Shown here: positions 33,017-41,943 of the stretch, in pieces | Position numbering within the stretch: the first letter of the stretch is position 1 | Layout: the number at the start of each line of letters is the position of its first letter | DNA from: Candidatus Iainarchaeum sp. | GTDB lineage: Archaea > Iainarchaeota > Iainarchaeia > Iainarchaeales > UBA10219 | Direction: 5' to 3' | Assembly: GCA_018304425.1 (NCBI GenBank) | Contig: JAGVWE010000006.1 | Coordinates: 71,281-135,280 of the forward strand | Length of the DNA stretch: 64,000 nucleotides | The notes under the pieces: model-generated | Told to the model about the DNA's origin: nothing | The model's input: the letters and a program-made list of their open reading frames with translations, nothing else | Databases searched by the model: none | Program-made: the position numbers and the translations under genes

Positions 33017-34300
33017 TCACTGGCCGACGCCGTAATACTCGAAGCCCGCGGCCTCGACTTGCTTGCGCGAGTAAAGGTTGCGGCCGTCAACGATTACCCG
33101 GCCATTCATCAGGGCTTTTACCTTCCGAAAATCGATTTCCTTGAACTCGTTCCACTCGGTCAACACCAACAGGGCGTCCGCCCCCTGCGCGCAGTCGTAC
33201 ACGGACTCGCAGTACGTGATGCCAGTCAACACCTTCTTCGCGGCCTCCTCGGCCACGGGGTCCATGGCCGAAACCAGGGCGCCCTTTGCCTTCAGGGCCC
33301 GGATGACTTCCAAGGAAGGGGCCTCCCGCAGGTCATCGGTGTTGGGCTTGAACGCCAGGCCCAAAACCCCTATCCGCCTCCCTTTAAGGCTTCCCAGGGC
33401 CTTCTCTAGTTTCCGGACGGCCAAGGTTTTCTGCAGGCGGTTGACTTCCTCAACCCCCTTCAAAATCCGGAAGTCATAGCCGGCCTTTTCCGCGGTCTTG
33501 GCCAGGGCCTTCACGTCCTTGGGAAAACAACTGCCCCCATAGCCAACCCCCGCGTTCAAAAAAGCGGGCCCGATTCTCGCGTCCAGGCCCATGCCTTCCG
33601 CGACTTTTTTCACGTCCGCCCCGACCAGGTCACAGACGTTGGCAATCTCGTTGATGAAGGAAATCTTCGTCGCGAGGAAAGCGTTGCTGGCGTACTTGAT
33701 GAGCTCGGCGGACTTGACGTCGGTGAAAATCATTTTTGCGCCGAGGGGCGCGTAGATTTCGCGCATGCGCTTCTCGGCCGCCACTGAACCGTTGCCGATG
33801 ACGACCCGGTCCGGCTTCATGAAGTCGTTGATGGCCGAGCCCTCGCGGAGGAACTCCGGGTTGGACACGACGTCGAACTCGCCCGCGTAAAACTTTGTCA
33901 CGGTGTCCCTGACGAGGCTGCCGGTTCCAACCGGGACCGTGCTCTTGTTCACGATGACCTTGTAGCCGTTCATGTTTTTCCCGATTTCTTCGGCGACCTG
34001 GATGACGAACCGGAGGTCGGCGTCGCCGTCCACGGACTCCGGCGTTCCAACGGCGATGAAAACGACGTCCGACTTTTCCACGGCCCCTCCGAGGTCCAAG
34101 CTGAAGGAAAGCCTCCCGGCCTTCGCGTTTTTTTCCACCAGTTCCTGGAGGCCGGGCTCGTAGATGGGAATAACTCCCCGGCGAAGGGATTCGATTTTTT
34201 CCTTGACCGCGTCCACGCAAACGACTTCGTGGCCCAACTCGCTGAGGCACGTGCCCAGGACCAGGCCGACATAGCCGCAACCCATGACCGCAATCCGCAT
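33017..34300 (-). CDS. ugd: UDP-glucose 6-dehydrogenase
   Basis: 427 aa from ATG 34300 (RIAVMGCGYVGLVLGTCLSELGHEV); the start at 34645 would run through the divergent gene and its promoter. Motifs: VGTPESVDGDADLRFV, NKSTVPVGTGSLV, SNPEFLREGSAINDFMKPDR, IKYASNAFLATKISFINEIAN (catalytic Lys/Asn) and the catalytic Cys in GVGYGGSCFPKDVKAL. Oxidises UDP-glucose to UDP-glucuronate, substrate for the uxs product downstream. First gene of the operon, divergent from the RHH-nucleotidyltransferase fusion. Confidence 0.92.
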   Translation of the reverse strand: MRIAVMGCGYVGLVLGTCLSELGHEVVCVDAVKEKIESLRRGVIPIYEPGLQELVEKNAKAGRLSFSLDLGGAVEKSDVVFIAVGTPESVDGDADLRFVIQVAEEIGKNMNGYKVIVNKSTVPVGTGSLVRDTVTKFYAGEFDVVSNPEFLREGSAINDFMKPDRVVIGNGSVAAEKRMREIYAPLGAKMIFTDVKSAELIKYASNAFLATKISFINEIANVCDLVGADVKKVAEGMGLDARIGPAFLNAGVGYGGSCFPKDVKALAKTAEKAGYDFRILKGVEEVNRLQKTLAVRKLEKALGSLKGRRIGVLGLAFKPNTDDLREAPSLEVIRALKAKGALVSAMDPVAEEAAKKVLTGITYCESVYDCAQGADALLVLTEWNEFKEIDFRKVKALMNGRVIVDGRNLYSRKQVEAAGFEYYGVGQ

Positions 34301-34319: not shown

Positions 34320-34394
34320 AAAGGTATAGCCATTTTGAGGCAAAATACCTTTAAATATGTGATGGATGCATATAGTGTATGAGCTAGTATGAGC
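34320..34394. promoter_or_regulatory. Divergent control region between ugd and the RHH-nucleotidyltransferase gene
   Basis: AAAGGTAT (34320-34327) and its complement ATACCTTT (34345-34352) are 17 bp apart; the second overlaps TATA-like CCTTTAAATATG. Downstream are CATA-TAGTG-TATG (34369-34381) and a direct repeat TATGAGC at 34378 and 34388, the second covering the ATG at 34389. TATAGTG also occurs in other antitoxin promoters here. A good candidate operator for the RHH domain, able to affect both genes. Confidence 0.5.
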
Positions 34395-35201
34395 AGGGAA
34401 CGGGTTACGATTACCATCCGCAAGGACCTCCTGACCCAGGTGGACCGGCTAGTGGATGGGTCGACCATCCGGAGCCGGAGCCAGGCCATCGAGTCCCTGC
34501 TGAGCAAGCTGCTTTCCGAATTCCGGATAGGGCGGGCGCTCATCCTCGCGGGCGGGAAGAGCAAGCACTTCGCACCCGAGGAATCGCGGTTCCTGATGGA
34601 GCTACAGGGCAAGCCCCTCATCGAGCAGGTCATGAACGCCATCAACAGCTTTCACATCAGCAATTTCCTGGTGTATGTCGACGGGTTCAACCGCAAGGCC
34701 ATCGACGTGCTGGGCGCGCGCCGGCTGCCCTATCACGTGGACTTCCTGACCGAAGGGGAATCGAAGGGGACCATCGCCCCACTGCTCAAGGCCAGGCCCC
34801 AATTGAAGGAAACCTTCCTGGTGTCCTATGGGGATACCATCTGCTCGCTGAACCTCCACGACATGCTGGCACTCCACAAACAGAACAAGGCGCTCGCGAC
34901 CATCGCCCTGACAACCGTGAGCAACCCGAAGGACTATGGGGTCGTGATGCTGCAGGGCGGGAAGGTCAGCGAGTTCATCCAGAAACCGGAACAGGAAGCC
35001 AAGAGCTACCTCATCAACGCCGGCTACTTCCTCTTCGAGCCGCAGATTTTCGACTACCTCACCCCGAAGATGACCAGCCTGGAGAACGAGTTGTTCCCCT
35101 TGCTGGCGCAAAAGGGGCTGTTATACGGGTATCCCTTCCAGGGCAAGTACCTGAACGTGAACACCCCGGCCGAGCTGGAACGGGCGGAAATGCTGCTGTG
35201 A
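34389..35201 (+). CDS. Ribbon-helix-helix DNA-binding domain fused to a degenerate sugar nucleotidyltransferase
   Basis: 270 aa. Residues 1-45 (RVTITIRKDLLTQVDRLVDG, then SRSQAIESLLSKLLSE) are a classic CopG/RHH repressor domain. From residue 48 a complete nucleotidyltransferase fold follows (RALILAGGKSK, LVSYGDTICSLN with Asp149, KDYGVVMLQGGKVSEFIQKP, INAGYFLFEP). The catalytic signature is altered: the GTR of GGKGTR is SKH, and the usual PK before the GKP segment is missing. I infer a sensor-repressor that binds a sugar phosphate or nucleotide sugar, controlling itself and perhaps the divergent ugd operon. Residual catalysis is possible. Confidence 0.75.
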   Translation: MSRERVTITIRKDLLTQVDRLVDGSTIRSRSQAIESLLSKLLSEFRIGRALILAGGKSKHFAPEESRFLMELQGKPLIEQVMNAINSFHISNFLVYVDGFNRKAIDVLGARRLPYHVDFLTEGESKGTIAPLLKARPQLKETFLVSYGDTICSLNLHDMLALHKQNKALATIALTTVSNPKDYGVVMLQGGKVSEFIQKPEQEAKSYLINAGYFLFEPQIFDYLTPKMTSLENELFPLLAQKGLLYGYPFQGKYLNVNTPAELERAEMLL

Positions 35202-35234
35202 AATAGCCAAGCACCAAGGGAGGAAGGAAAGTAT

Positions 35235-35256
35235 TTATAGTTCGTATACACTATAA
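35235..35256. promoter_or_regulatory. Palindromic operator of the PIN/RHH-UPF0175 module
   Basis: TTATAGT (35235-35241) and ACTATAA (35250-35256) form a perfect 7+7 inverted repeat with an 8-nt centre, ending 8 nt before ATG 35265 and overlapping the A/T-rich promoter. Confidence 0.6.
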
Positions 35257-35264
35257 TATATTGT

Positions 35265-35801
35265 ATGACAAATAGGCTGGTGGTATCGGACAGCAGTTCG
35301 CTGATCCTTGCCACGAAGGCCGCGGTCCTGCAAACGCTGTGCATGTGCTTCGCAGTCCAAATCCCTGAAGCCGTATTCGAGGAAACCGTGGAAGCGGGCA
35401 AGCGCGCTGGAAAAGCGGATGCGTTAAGGATCGAAGAAGCCGTCGAAACCGGAAGAATAAAGGTCGCAAAAGTTGCGGCGCTAAAGGACAAAAAAATCGA
35501 AAAATGGCTGAAAGAACTCTGCCTGGGTGAAGGTGAAGAACAGGCCCTCAAGCTCTGCCTGCAAGTGAAAGCCAATCTCTTTCTGGTCGATGACCGCCAA
35601 GCTATCAACGCGGCGAAACTGCTGGAAATAAATTGGTCGACGTTGCCGGGCTTGATCGTGGGCCTCGCCGAAAAAAACAGGCTGGCGCCAGAGAAGGCAT
35701 TGGATGCCCTCCGCGTCCTCCAGGAAGAAGGAAGATATAAGCTGGATTTCATCCTCGACGCATTCAAAAAAATCGAAGCATTGAAGGAGGCGAAAAAATG
35801 A
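35265..35801 (+). CDS. PIN-domain toxin, DUF3368-like
   Basis: 178 aa. N-terminal RLVVSDSSSLILATKA gives the first PIN Asp, LCLGEGEEQALKLCLQ the central acidic pair and NLFLVDDRQAINAAKLL the third site, as in DUF3368 PIN proteins. These RNase-type toxins pair with UPF0175-containing antitoxins, which is exactly what follows. Gene order is toxin first, the reverse of vapBC, and the stop overlaps the antitoxin start by 4 nt. Confidence 0.8.
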   Translation: MTNRLVVSDSSSLILATKAAVLQTLCMCFAVQIPEAVFEETVEAGKRAGKADALRIEEAVETGRIKVAKVAALKDKKIEKWLKELCLGEGEEQALKLCLQVKANLFLVDDRQAINAAKLLEINWSTLPGLIVGLAEKNRLAPEKALDALRVLQEEGRYKLDFILDAFKKIEALKEAKK

Positions 35802-36112
35802 AGACCCAACTGGTTTCGGTAAGGCTCCCTGAAGAGGACCTCAAGATAATCGAACAAAAGACCAAGGAAGAAAAAATGGCTAAAACCACGGCTTTGAAGC
35901 AGATGCTGGCTCTTGGCATCAAGCAATACCAACTCGCAAGAGCCGTCGAAAGATACGGGCGGGGAAAGACCAGCCTCGGCAAGGCCGCCGAAGAAGCCGG
36001 TCTCACAGTATGGGAAATGATGGACTGCCTCAAGGAAAAAGGCGTGCCCAACCCCCTCACCGCCGAAGACTTTCGACAAAGCCGCAAAAACCTCGAAAAG
36101 GCGTTGCAGTAA
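35798..36112 (+). CDS. Antitoxin combining an RHH domain and a UPF0175 domain
   Basis: 104 aa. Residues 1-45 (QLVSVRLPEEDLKIIEQKTKEEKMAKTTALKQMLALGIKQY) look like a ribbon-helix-helix; residues about 50-90 (RYGRGKTSLGKAAEEAGLTVWEMMDCLKEKGVP) are a UPF0175 HTH-like module. The module is closely similar to the separate protein at 36308. Overlaps the PIN toxin by 4 nt, so it is the antitoxin and probably the repressor at 35235-35256. Confidence 0.78.
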   Translation: MKTQLVSVRLPEEDLKIIEQKTKEEKMAKTTALKQMLALGIKQYQLARAVERYGRGKTSLGKAAEEAGLTVWEMMDCLKEKGVPNPLTAEDFRQSRKNLEKALQ

Positions 36113-36246
36113 CCGATTGAATGGAACCCCGCCTACCGCGCAAAATGACTATTCATTTTTATCTGGCTTCCACTAACATTAAAGAAATAGCTAATAAACA
36201 CATTATAAGGCATTAAAATAATTAAACACGCAGCCTAAATCCGTCC
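36113..36246. other. A/T-rich intergenic stretch, no gene seen
   Basis: A/T-rich DNA (many TTAAA and TAATAA runs) between the toxin-antitoxin pair and the UPF0175 operon. No open frame, RNA gene or clear repeat is visible; several possible TATA boxes. Confidence 0.5.
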
Positions 36247-36266
36247 AATTGCCTTAAGAGGCAATT
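36247..36266. promoter_or_regulatory. 20-bp palindrome upstream of the UPF0175-nucleotidyltransferase operon
   Basis: AATTGCCT-TAAG-AGGCAATT, a perfect 8+8 inverted repeat that runs into the TATA-like ATTTTAATAGG (about 36264-36274). The encoded UPF0175 protein at 36308 is the obvious candidate ligand. A GGAGG ribosome-binding site follows at about 36294-36298. Confidence 0.6.
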
Positions 36267-36304
36267 TTAATAGGTTACTGGCCATAAACTTCTGGAGGCG
36301 ACAG

Positions 36305-36496
36305 ATGATGAAATCCGTGGAGAAATCGTTCCTTGCAGATGCGCTGAAAGCGTACGAAAACGGCCAGCTTACGCTCTGGCGAGCCGCAAAAAAGGCCGGC
36401 CTGTCCTTGTGGGAGATGATGGACGAATGCCAGCGCAAACAGGCTCAGGTGCCTTATTCGGTCAAAGACTTCGCAGAAGACATGGGGAAAGCATGA
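36305..36496 (+). CDS. UPF0175-family small DNA-binding protein
   Basis: 63 aa (62 from the second ATG at 36308). YENGQLTLWRAAKKAGLSLWEMMDECQRKQ matches the UPF0175 module of the antitoxin at 35798 position by position (Y..G..TL..AA..AGL..WEMMD). Such modules normally occur as antitoxins of PIN toxins, but no toxin follows; its TGA overlaps the ATG of a sugar nucleotidyltransferase (ATGA). GGAGG lies upstream. I infer a local repressor or a partner protein of that enzyme. Confidence 0.75.
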   Translation: MMKSVEKSFLADALKAYENGQLTLWRAAKKAGLSLWEMMDECQRKQAQVPYSVKDFAEDMGKA

Positions 36497-37200
36497 TTCA
36501 CAAGGCATTCATCCTCGCCGGCGGCAAGGGGGAACGGTTGAGGCCCCTGACGGATGAAACGCCCAAGCCCATGCTGGAGGTCTCCGGCAAGCCCATCCTC
36601 CAGCATGCCATCGACTGGCTGGAATACCATGGCGTGCAGGAAATCGTGTTAGGCGTGGGCTACCAGCACGAAAAAATCATGCACTACTTTGGCAACGGCC
36701 GGCCGTCGGGCGCGAGGATAACCTACAGCGTGGAAGGAAAACCCCTGGGCACCGGGGGCGCGGTCAAGGCCGCCCAGGAAATGCTGGGCAAAGAGCCATT
36801 CATCATGCTGAACGGCGACAACCTGATGGACGTCGATTACCGGAAAATGGCGGCAGTCCACGAAAAAAACAAGGCGCTGGCCACGATTGCCCTGGTGGAA
36901 GTCAAGGACGTGACCGGTTACGGCGTGGCCCGGCTCCAGGGAGAAAAAATAACAGAGTTCGTGGAAAAACCCGCGCCTGGCCTGGAGCCCAGCAAGCGCA
37001 TCAATGCCGGCTGCTATGTCCTGGAACCCAAAGCCCTGGACTTCATCCCCGACGGCTTTTCCCTGATTGAAAAAACCGCTTTTCCCGCGCTCGCCAAGAA
37101 AGGCCGGCTCTACGCGTTTTCCCATGTTGGACAATGGTTTCCCACCGACGACCCCCCGAAATGGGAGGCCGCGAAAAAGGCCTGGAAGCCACCGGTGTAA
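36493..37200 (+). CDS. Sugar-1-phosphate nucleotidylyltransferase (mannose-1-phosphate guanylyltransferase-like)
   Basis: 235 aa from ATG 36493; the longer in-frame start at 36409 overlaps the UPF0175 gene and is rejected. Intact catalytic signature FILAGGKGERLRPLTDETPKPMLEVSGKPILQHAI, metal site MLNGDNLMDVD, GYGVARLQGEKITEFVEKP and INAGCYVLEPKAL. Contrast with the degenerate homologue at 34389. Overlap with the UPF0175 gene implies coupled translation; the next gene is a membrane glycosyltransferase. Confidence 0.85.
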   Translation: MIHKAFILAGGKGERLRPLTDETPKPMLEVSGKPILQHAIDWLEYHGVQEIVLGVGYQHEKIMHYFGNGRPSGARITYSVEGKPLGTGGAVKAAQEMLGKEPFIMLNGDNLMDVDYRKMAAVHEKNKALATIALVEVKDVTGYGVARLQGEKITEFVEKPAPGLEPSKRINAGCYVLEPKALDFIPDGFSLIEKTAFPALAKKGRLYAFSHVGQWFPTDDPPKWEAAKKAWKPPV

Positions 37201-41149: not shown

Positions 41150-41425
41150 ATGAAGCAGTACGTCACGAATGTGGAGCCAGCCCTCATCAAGGAAGTCGAC
41201 AAAATCGTCAAGAAGAAACAGCATTACAGTTCCCGCAACGAGTTCATCCGGGACGCCATCCGAAGCAAGGTGAAAGAACCACGGGCCATGAAACTCCGGG
41301 AAGCGCTGAGAAAAATCAGAGAAACTGCATTGAAGCGGGGTTGGAATGGAGAGATGCCAACCAAAGCGGAACGCGAAAAAATCCTGCAAGAATTTCTGAA
41401 AGAAAAAGGTCTTTCACTCGATTAA
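41150..41425 (+). CDS. CopG/RHH-type antitoxin or repressor
   Basis: 91 aa. KQYVTNVEPALIKEVDKIVKKKQHYSSRNEFIRDAIRSKV is an RHH DNA-binding domain (archaeal NikR/CopG-like pattern, EF-IRDAIR helix), followed by a charged helical tail. Behind a palindromic operator. The last 12 nt overlap the 3' end of the PIN toxin on the other strand, so this is a convergent rather than tandem antitoxin-toxin arrangement. Confidence 0.78.
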   Translation: MKQYVTNVEPALIKEVDKIVKKKQHYSSRNEFIRDAIRSKVKEPRAMKLREALRKIRETALKRGWNGEMPTKAEREKILQEFLKEKGLSLD

Positions 41426-41851
41426 GTCCCTGGGTGCTACGACGCGAATCAAACCCGCAGCAAGCACAAAATCTTTTTTGTTGAAAGTCATCAAGGCATC
41501 GCAATGGGCTTCGATGGCAATCGCTGCATGGAGGGCATCCATGGAAGGAACGCCTTTTCCGCGAAATTCCTCGGCCAAAGAAGTGCACCGCCCAGTAGAC
41601 TCGGTAACTTCGACAGATATTTCTCGCTCTCGGAAGAAATCGAGCACTTCTTGTGCGGAGTGGTATGCAATCCGCTTGATTTCCCGAAACACGTAATCAG
41701 ACAACACTACGGTAAACCGTTCCGGGCACGCGTCAAAGAAATCCTCGACGTCTTGGTACATCAACTTGAATGGCTTGCCCATGTCGGCCTTAACGAAGGC
41801 GATGAAAATGTTGGCATCCAGGTAGACACGCTGTTTAGGGGCTGGCGACAT
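41414..41851 (-). CDS. PIN-domain toxin, convergent with RHH gene
   Basis: 145 aa from ATG 41851 (SPAPKQRVYLDANIFIAF), the natural PIN start; the GTG at 41907 would add 19 unrelated residues. Acidic sites: YLDANIFIAF, YVFREIKRI, SMDALHAAIA, and the final FNKKDFVLA. RNase-type toxin of the VapC group. Convergent with the RHH gene, with 12 nt of 3' overlap, so toxin mRNA is antisense to antitoxin mRNA at its end. Confidence 0.78.
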   Translation of the reverse strand: MSPAPKQRVYLDANIFIAFVKADMGKPFKLMYQDVEDFFDACPERFTVVLSDYVFREIKRIAYHSAQEVLDFFREREISVEVTESTGRCTSLAEEFRGKGVPSMDALHAAIAIEAHCDALMTFNKKDFVLAAGLIRVVAPRDLIE

Positions 41852-41943
41852 GCACGACCCTCCGAAGGGTTTCGGCAACGGGTGCGGTGCCAGCCATAAT
41901 AGCCACACGCCAACCAGTTTTTAGGCTTTTCGACGATTGCCGA

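Follow-up and report, generated by a model that had tools for sequence, protein, structure and literature searches.

The closest described counterpart of the gene reported here is PutA, in which a ribbon-helix-helix (RHH) domain is fused to a proline catabolic enzyme and the protein acts as autogenous repressor of its own pathway (PMC5293562). A second precedent is GMPPA, a non-catalytic paralogue of GDP-mannose pyrophosphorylase that exerts feedback and has a sugar nucleotide as its ligand (PMC11228364). In a stretch of 64,000 nucleotides from Candidatus Iainarchaeum sp. (contig JAGVWE010000006.1, positions 71,281 to 135,280; hereafter the window, with positions counted from its first letter), the gene at 34389-35201 encodes an RHH domain joined to a sugar nucleotidyltransferase domain, and its product may work like PutA combined with GMPPA, being a member of neither. 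With PutA it shares the N-terminal RHH on a metabolic enzyme domain and, as proposed below, autogenous repression. PutA is active and its enzyme part is unrelated, whereas the 34389 protein is without catalytic residues, is associated with a nucleotide-sugar pathway and does not appear to be an RHH domain on an active pathway enzyme. With GMPPA, a close structural match of its model, it shares a sugar nucleotidyltransferase fold that has seemingly lost catalysis, but GMPPA acts on a catalytic partner by protein contact and has no DNA-binding domain. Enzymes of the MurU, HddC, RmlA and GMPPB types share fold and family with both nucleotidyltransferases of the window; they carry no RHH, and their GxGxR loop is absent from the 34389 protein. 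Finally, COG2886 (UPF0175) and PIN proteins form known toxin-antitoxin pairs (PMC2701414). One such pair, of the type PDC-S70 in PADLOC, adjoins the fusion and is only its neighbour; no nucleotidyltransferase belongs to that system.

A previous sequence-only reading of these 3 kb had proposed that toxin-antitoxin regulators were captured to control nucleotide-sugar metabolism. It found something real for a partly wrong reason, because the genes are not a toxin-antitoxin regulon and the capture story is only partly supported. The evidence presented here makes it probable that the 34389-35201 product is an autoregulated one-component repressor, whose dead enzyme domain would sense a sugar nucleotide or a sugar phosphate.

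A conserved fusion family in DPANN archaea

34389-35201, + strand: fusion of RHH and sugar nucleotidyltransferase (Pfam, orthologues, AlphaFold model, residue table)

The protein of 270 amino acids consists of an RHH domain (about residues 1-45) and a nucleotidyltransferase fold (about residues 48-270), an architecture which the sequence-only reading had recognised and which Pfam bears out (NTP_transferase, E=1.6e-21, together with a sub-threshold RHH_1 match). The assignment of the family to RHH is based on RHH_1 matches in 13 of 25 and 14 of 38 members of two member sets and on the predicted helix pattern, as AlphaFold models place helices at residues 12-21 and 30-44; the strand is absent from the monomer model. 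The model of the window protein has a pLDDT of 88.4 (90.2 for a second model) and its nucleotidyltransferase part aligns with GMPPB over 222 residues (Z 28.4, root-mean-square deviation 1.9). Both GMPPA and GMPPB were among the best structural matches, GMPPA in a Foldseek search.

The genome that holds the window (1.48 Mb, 7 contigs) has 'Candidatus Diapherotrites' records among its relatives of the same order, and 53 genomes of that order were searched. Full-length orthologues with 43-60% identity were found in 11 genomes besides its own, together with additional RHH-containing paralogues at 34-37% identity. A scan of a collection of species genomes gave 72 loci, which comprise two groups and some unfused nucleotidyltransferases. 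Group A, which includes the window fusion, is made up of 'Diapherotrites' loci plus a small number from Aenigmatarchaeota. Group W has about 40 loci, mainly from Woesearchaeota and Nanoarchaeota; a third set, group T, is present in a few relatives. In the class of one group-W genome, RHH was detected at E<=1e-6 in 40 of 93 genomes, mostly in frames of 245-340 amino acids, and all 20 regions fetched from that class had the RHH on a nucleotidyltransferase fusion, with catalytic motifs intact in some and degenerate in others. In a tree of the nucleotidyltransferase part, groups A, W and T cluster on a single branch (support 92/80), apart from the active type, whose own branch intermingles RHH-bearing and RHH-free forms. 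Judged from these sequences, the 34389-35201 fusion is a real, conserved member of a DPANN-wide family. Nothing relevant to such a fusion, or to ADP-heptose in DPANN archaea, was found in the literature searched, which mostly did not cover subscription papers. This agrees with the sequence-only reading, to which no described system with this arrangement was known, and what looks like a regulator family derived from a sugar-nucleotide enzyme is apparently undescribed.

Loss of catalytic residues

Catalytic positions were compared in a HMMER alignment with human GMPPB as the reference, in which group A is represented by 29 rows, with some genomes counted twice. The Arg of the GxGxR motif is missing from every row of groups A, W and T, its position being taken by His in the window fusion, and in group A all 29 of 29 rows lack this Arg and the second Mg-binding Asp alike, a count that includes the same duplicate genomes. 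The second Asp is replaced by Asn in group A and by His in groups W and T. The Lys of the PKP motif is K or R in group A and deleted in groups W and T. No row of the three groups departs from Asp at the first Mg-binding position, and the EKP Lys and the NAG Gly are retained throughout groups A and W. The 34389-35201 protein thus does not have the GxGxR...PKP loop together with both Mg-binding Asp residues, the combination that marks an active enzyme, and it seems to be a pseudo-enzyme whose catalysis has been lost. RHH paralogues at L179, L188 and other loci keep the catalytic motifs, as read from their sequences.

These residues bear on the possibility of a trigger enzyme, which would still catalyse nucleotide transfer and at the same time repress its own gene, as PutA does for proline. 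Such a protein is not implausible in this family, because RHH-nucleotidyltransferase fusions with intact motifs exist, several of them with similar operators, and group A has preserved a basic residue at the PKP Lys as well as the first Asp. The consistent loss of the GxGxR Arg and the second Asp throughout group A, and of the whole loop in groups W and T, nevertheless makes a trigger enzyme unlikely.

A conserved predicted operator upstream of the fusion

34350-34357, + strand: TATA-box-like sequence TTTAAATA, immediately upstream of the operator (read directly)
34368-34393, + strand: conserved operator GCATATAGTGTATGAGCTAGTATGAG, consensus TCATAnATAGTATGATAGnGTATGA (position weight matrix and profile trained on relatives only)

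The half-sites of this operator, which was found by computation, are GTATGA and TCATAC, and the final half-site of 34368-34393 includes the start codon. The order of TATA box and operator is also visible in relatives. In group A, a first motif search picked the coding start of the UDP-glucose dehydrogenase gene; a rerun on the last 75 bases yielded TCATAnATAGTATGATAGnGTATGA with a log-likelihood of 232, against 67-77 in shuffles. Counted from the start, the element occupies -21 to +5 both in the window and in 10 of the 14 training sequences; the remaining four loci have the whole element 42-61 bases upstream of the start. Group W has an upstream motif of its own, AGTATGAATATTTCATACT (log-likelihood 406; dinucleotide shuffles gave 72-82). 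The sequence GTATGANNNNNTCATAC (GTATGA-N5-TCATAC) occurs exactly once per genome in 8/8 woesearchaeal genomes of 0.8-1.7 Mb and its reversed control 0 times; in L105 and L113, the two loci checked for this, the place falls in the intergenic region of the regulator.

With the matrix built from relatives only, 34368-34393 was the best site in the window, and the corresponding profile placed its best genome-wide match at 34369-34393; at E values up to 10 there was one further match in the genome, in the toxin-antitoxin promoter of the window. When the model was applied to the 53 relatives, the top matches were promoters of RHH-nucleotidyltransferase genes, including active-type ones outside the training set. 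The half-site also varies with the first outward residue of the RHH strand, which is Thr in the 15 genes with GTATGA and Ser in the 6 genes with GTATTA. No exception occurs among these RHH-nucleotidyltransferase genes, which come from both lineages, in counts that ignore kinship. This correlation fits a direct contact of the RHH with these sites. As a separate observation, a possible third operator type, ACCTTTATCCTAC, lies upstream of degenerate fusions at L179, L180 and L194, with GTAGGAT in two of them.

Neighbouring nucleotide-sugar genes

33017-34300, - strand: UDP-glucose dehydrogenase, divergent to the fusion and proposed as shared target (Pfam NAD-binding domain, E=1.5e-64)

A UDP-glucose dehydrogenase gene is divergent from the fusion in 13 of 17 group-A loci. 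Group W has a different neighbourhood, with ADP-heptose genes (GmhA, HldE kinase, HldE nucleotidyltransferase domain and GmhB) in 30 of the 34 loci with enough flank. The operon is typically oriented away from the regulator and begins with a cupin or GmhA gene, and 24 of these loci also have a glycosyltransferase of family 9 (heptosyltransferase-like). Many woesearchaeal ADP-heptose operons encode a GSU2086-family protein (NF052581) between GmhA or cupin and the HldE kinase (for example, L113 6397-7302). Genome G144 contains three RHH-pseudo-nucleotidyltransferase paralogues with differing upstream sequences: L182 adjoins cupin/HldE genes, L183 UDP-glucose dehydrogenase and L184 epimerase genes.

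Proposed mechanism

We propose that an N-terminal RHH dimer binds the GTATGA/TCATAC operator, which follows the TATA box and precedes the start of the regulator's own gene, so placed that bound protein would block the initiation of transcription. The C-terminal nucleotidyltransferase domain, from which catalytic residues are missing, keeps parts of the sugar-phosphate/sugar-nucleotide pocket, and its predicted ligand is a product or intermediate of the neighbouring pathway, that is, a UDP-sugar in group A and a compound of the ADP-heptose pathway in group W. Ligand binding would change the affinity for DNA and so give feedback on the regulator itself and on the divergent nucleotide-sugar genes, with the sign of that control likewise a prediction. 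Duplication of an RHH-bearing active nucleotidyltransferase, followed by loss of catalysis, probably gave rise to such regulators; the active form persists in other DPANN archaea. In its widest form the proposal is that the catalysis-free copies of this DPANN family are nucleotide-sugar sensors, one per pathway, each with an operator variant (GTATGA, GTATTA or GTAGGA) set by the RHH strand; we give this extension about an even chance.

Several points weigh against the sensor-repressor. The RHH_1 match of the window protein itself (E=0.001, score 19.4) is just under the Pfam cut-off of 20.5, the genome-wide E value of the window operator is just 0.13, and the correlation between RHH strand and operator is uncorrected for shared ancestry. 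Retention of the sugar pocket is partial and smallest in group T. Conservation of the group-A half-site that overlaps the start codon may be partly coding, an objection weakened by the four training loci that have the element 42-61 bp upstream. The promoter of UDP-glucose dehydrogenase showed no second operator site, which makes control of this gene less certain than autoregulation. In group W, the palindrome is missing from L091, L108 and L116 and weak in L099 and L106; four of these five loci also lack the adjacent divergent gene.

In a rival reading, the RHH binds DNA and the nucleotidyltransferase part provides dimerisation or a scaffold only, so that the protein would repress locally and constitutively and respond to no metabolite. 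Several pocket motifs are indeed eroded, most of all in group T, and autoregulation alone could explain a conserved operator. A scaffold would not account so readily for the invariance, throughout groups A and W, of the motifs on the sugar side (the first Asp, the EKP Lys and the NAG Gly), nor for the location of paralogues next to different sugar pathways, and on this evidence we judge it quite unlikely.

The toxin-antitoxin pair and other genes downstream

35244-35269, strand not assigned: operator-like site GTATACACTATAATATATTGTATGAC of the toxin-antitoxin promoter (ranked second genome-wide by the operator model of the RHH-nucleotidyltransferases)
35265-35801, + strand: PIN-type toxin gene of a PIN/UPF0175 pair (PADLOC PDC-S70, 4.9e-14)
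35798-36112, + strand: RHH + UPF0175 antitoxin (Pfam, UPF0175 1.5e-10, RHH weak)
36247-36266, + strand: inverted repeat with 7-bp arms, AATTGCCTTAAGAGGCAATT (55% of shuffles of the intergenic stretch contain a repeat with 6-bp arms)
36305-36496, + strand: solo UPF0175 (helix-turn-helix) protein of 63 amino acids, ATGA overlap with the next gene (Pfam, 8.8e-11)
36493-37200, + strand: second nucleotidyltransferase, catalytic loop intact (GGKGERLRPLTDETPKP), without RHH (NTP_transferase, E=4.4e-40)

The domains of this region are placed as the sequence-only reading had described them: an RHH-UPF0175 antitoxin of a PIN toxin at 35798, and UPF0175 alone overlapping a nucleotidyltransferase gene by ATGA (36305/36493). 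Of its three module combinations, the fusion is conserved and the UPF0175-nucleotidyltransferase overlap is seen only here. The PIN gene has zero Pfam matches, its orthologues adjoin UPF0175 antitoxins, and its adjacent antitoxin gene overlaps it by 4 bases. On these grounds 35265-36112 is by gene content a standard PIN/UPF0175 toxin-antitoxin pair, in which the antitoxin would neutralise the toxin, separate from the fusion. The site at 35244-35269 is probably the pair's own predicted operator, because the operator model gives comparable scores to toxin-antitoxin promoters in other genomes. Cross-control of the pair by the RHH-nucleotidyltransferase was considered and dropped for the same reason. 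Elsewhere in the window, an RHH-like open reading frame (41150-41425, + strand) converges on a PIN-like one (41414-41908, - strand), with overlapping 3' ends, as seen by eye in the translations.

The two UPF0175 domains of the pair and of the solo protein are the only ones in the 1.48-Mb genome. They had been said to match position by position; the similarity is weaker, at 43% identity over 47 residues, and a local duplication is not supported, because antitoxins of other genomes match each unit as well or better. The solo protein, which resembles those antitoxins as well as it does its neighbour, is probably an orphaned antitoxin domain, for which an autoregulatory role is possible. Its pairing with a nucleotidyltransferase was found in the window and in no relative examined. 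At L066 (6219-6867), in another genome, a similar solo UPF0175 comes after a HicAB-like pair and shares 4 bp with the HicA-like gene.

Each gene group had also been credited with its own palindromic control site. The palindromes at 34320-34352 (a repeat with 8-bp arms arises in 8% of shuffles) and at 36247-36266, are not clearly above chance, and no conservation was seen; they were rejected as control sites. The expectation of a control site inside 34320-34394 holds for 34368-34393, a conserved element that had not been described.

The second nucleotidyltransferase is likely active, as judged from its loop, with the second Asp displaced by two residues in the alignment. Its relatives often carry an RHH domain, and RHH domains are alike in distant members of the active type, for which reason we infer that the RHH is ancestral there and was lost in the 36493 gene.

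A single regulated system that unites the PIN pair, the solo UPF0175 and the two nucleotidyltransferases, built on a toxin-antitoxin regulator captured and shuffled among nucleotidyltransferases, is very improbable: the genes are physically clustered, the toxin-antitoxin promoter is the sole other match to the operator model in the genome and the ATGA overlap is real, but other toxin-antitoxin promoters match about equally, relatives hold the PIN/RHH-UPF0175 pair without a linked RHH-nucleotidyltransferase, and the solo UPF0175 has a nucleotidyltransferase partner in no relative examined, a similar one overlapping HicA elsewhere. In other genomes the PIN and UPF0175 parts are unlinked to nucleotidyltransferase genes, which fits part of what the sequence-only reading had named as refuting it, while the RHH-nucleotidyltransferase fusion is conserved. 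As the RHH is a general DNA-binding fold, the fusion is not evidence of toxin-antitoxin reshuffling. What stands of the earlier proposal is the link between regulator and nucleotide sugars, a DNA-binding module joined to a nucleotidyltransferase that recurs in DPANN archaea and probably controls nucleotide-sugar genes.

Conclusions

To our knowledge, gene regulation in DPANN archaea is almost unexplored. The family described here offers an evolutionary series of active fusion, dead fusion and unfused enzyme, together with conserved operators and a specific ligand prediction. If the sensor-repressor reading is true, DPANN archaea would control the synthesis of surface sugars by regulators built from the pathway's own enzyme fold, and the ADP-heptose operons of Woesearchaeota would be linked to a dedicated regulator.

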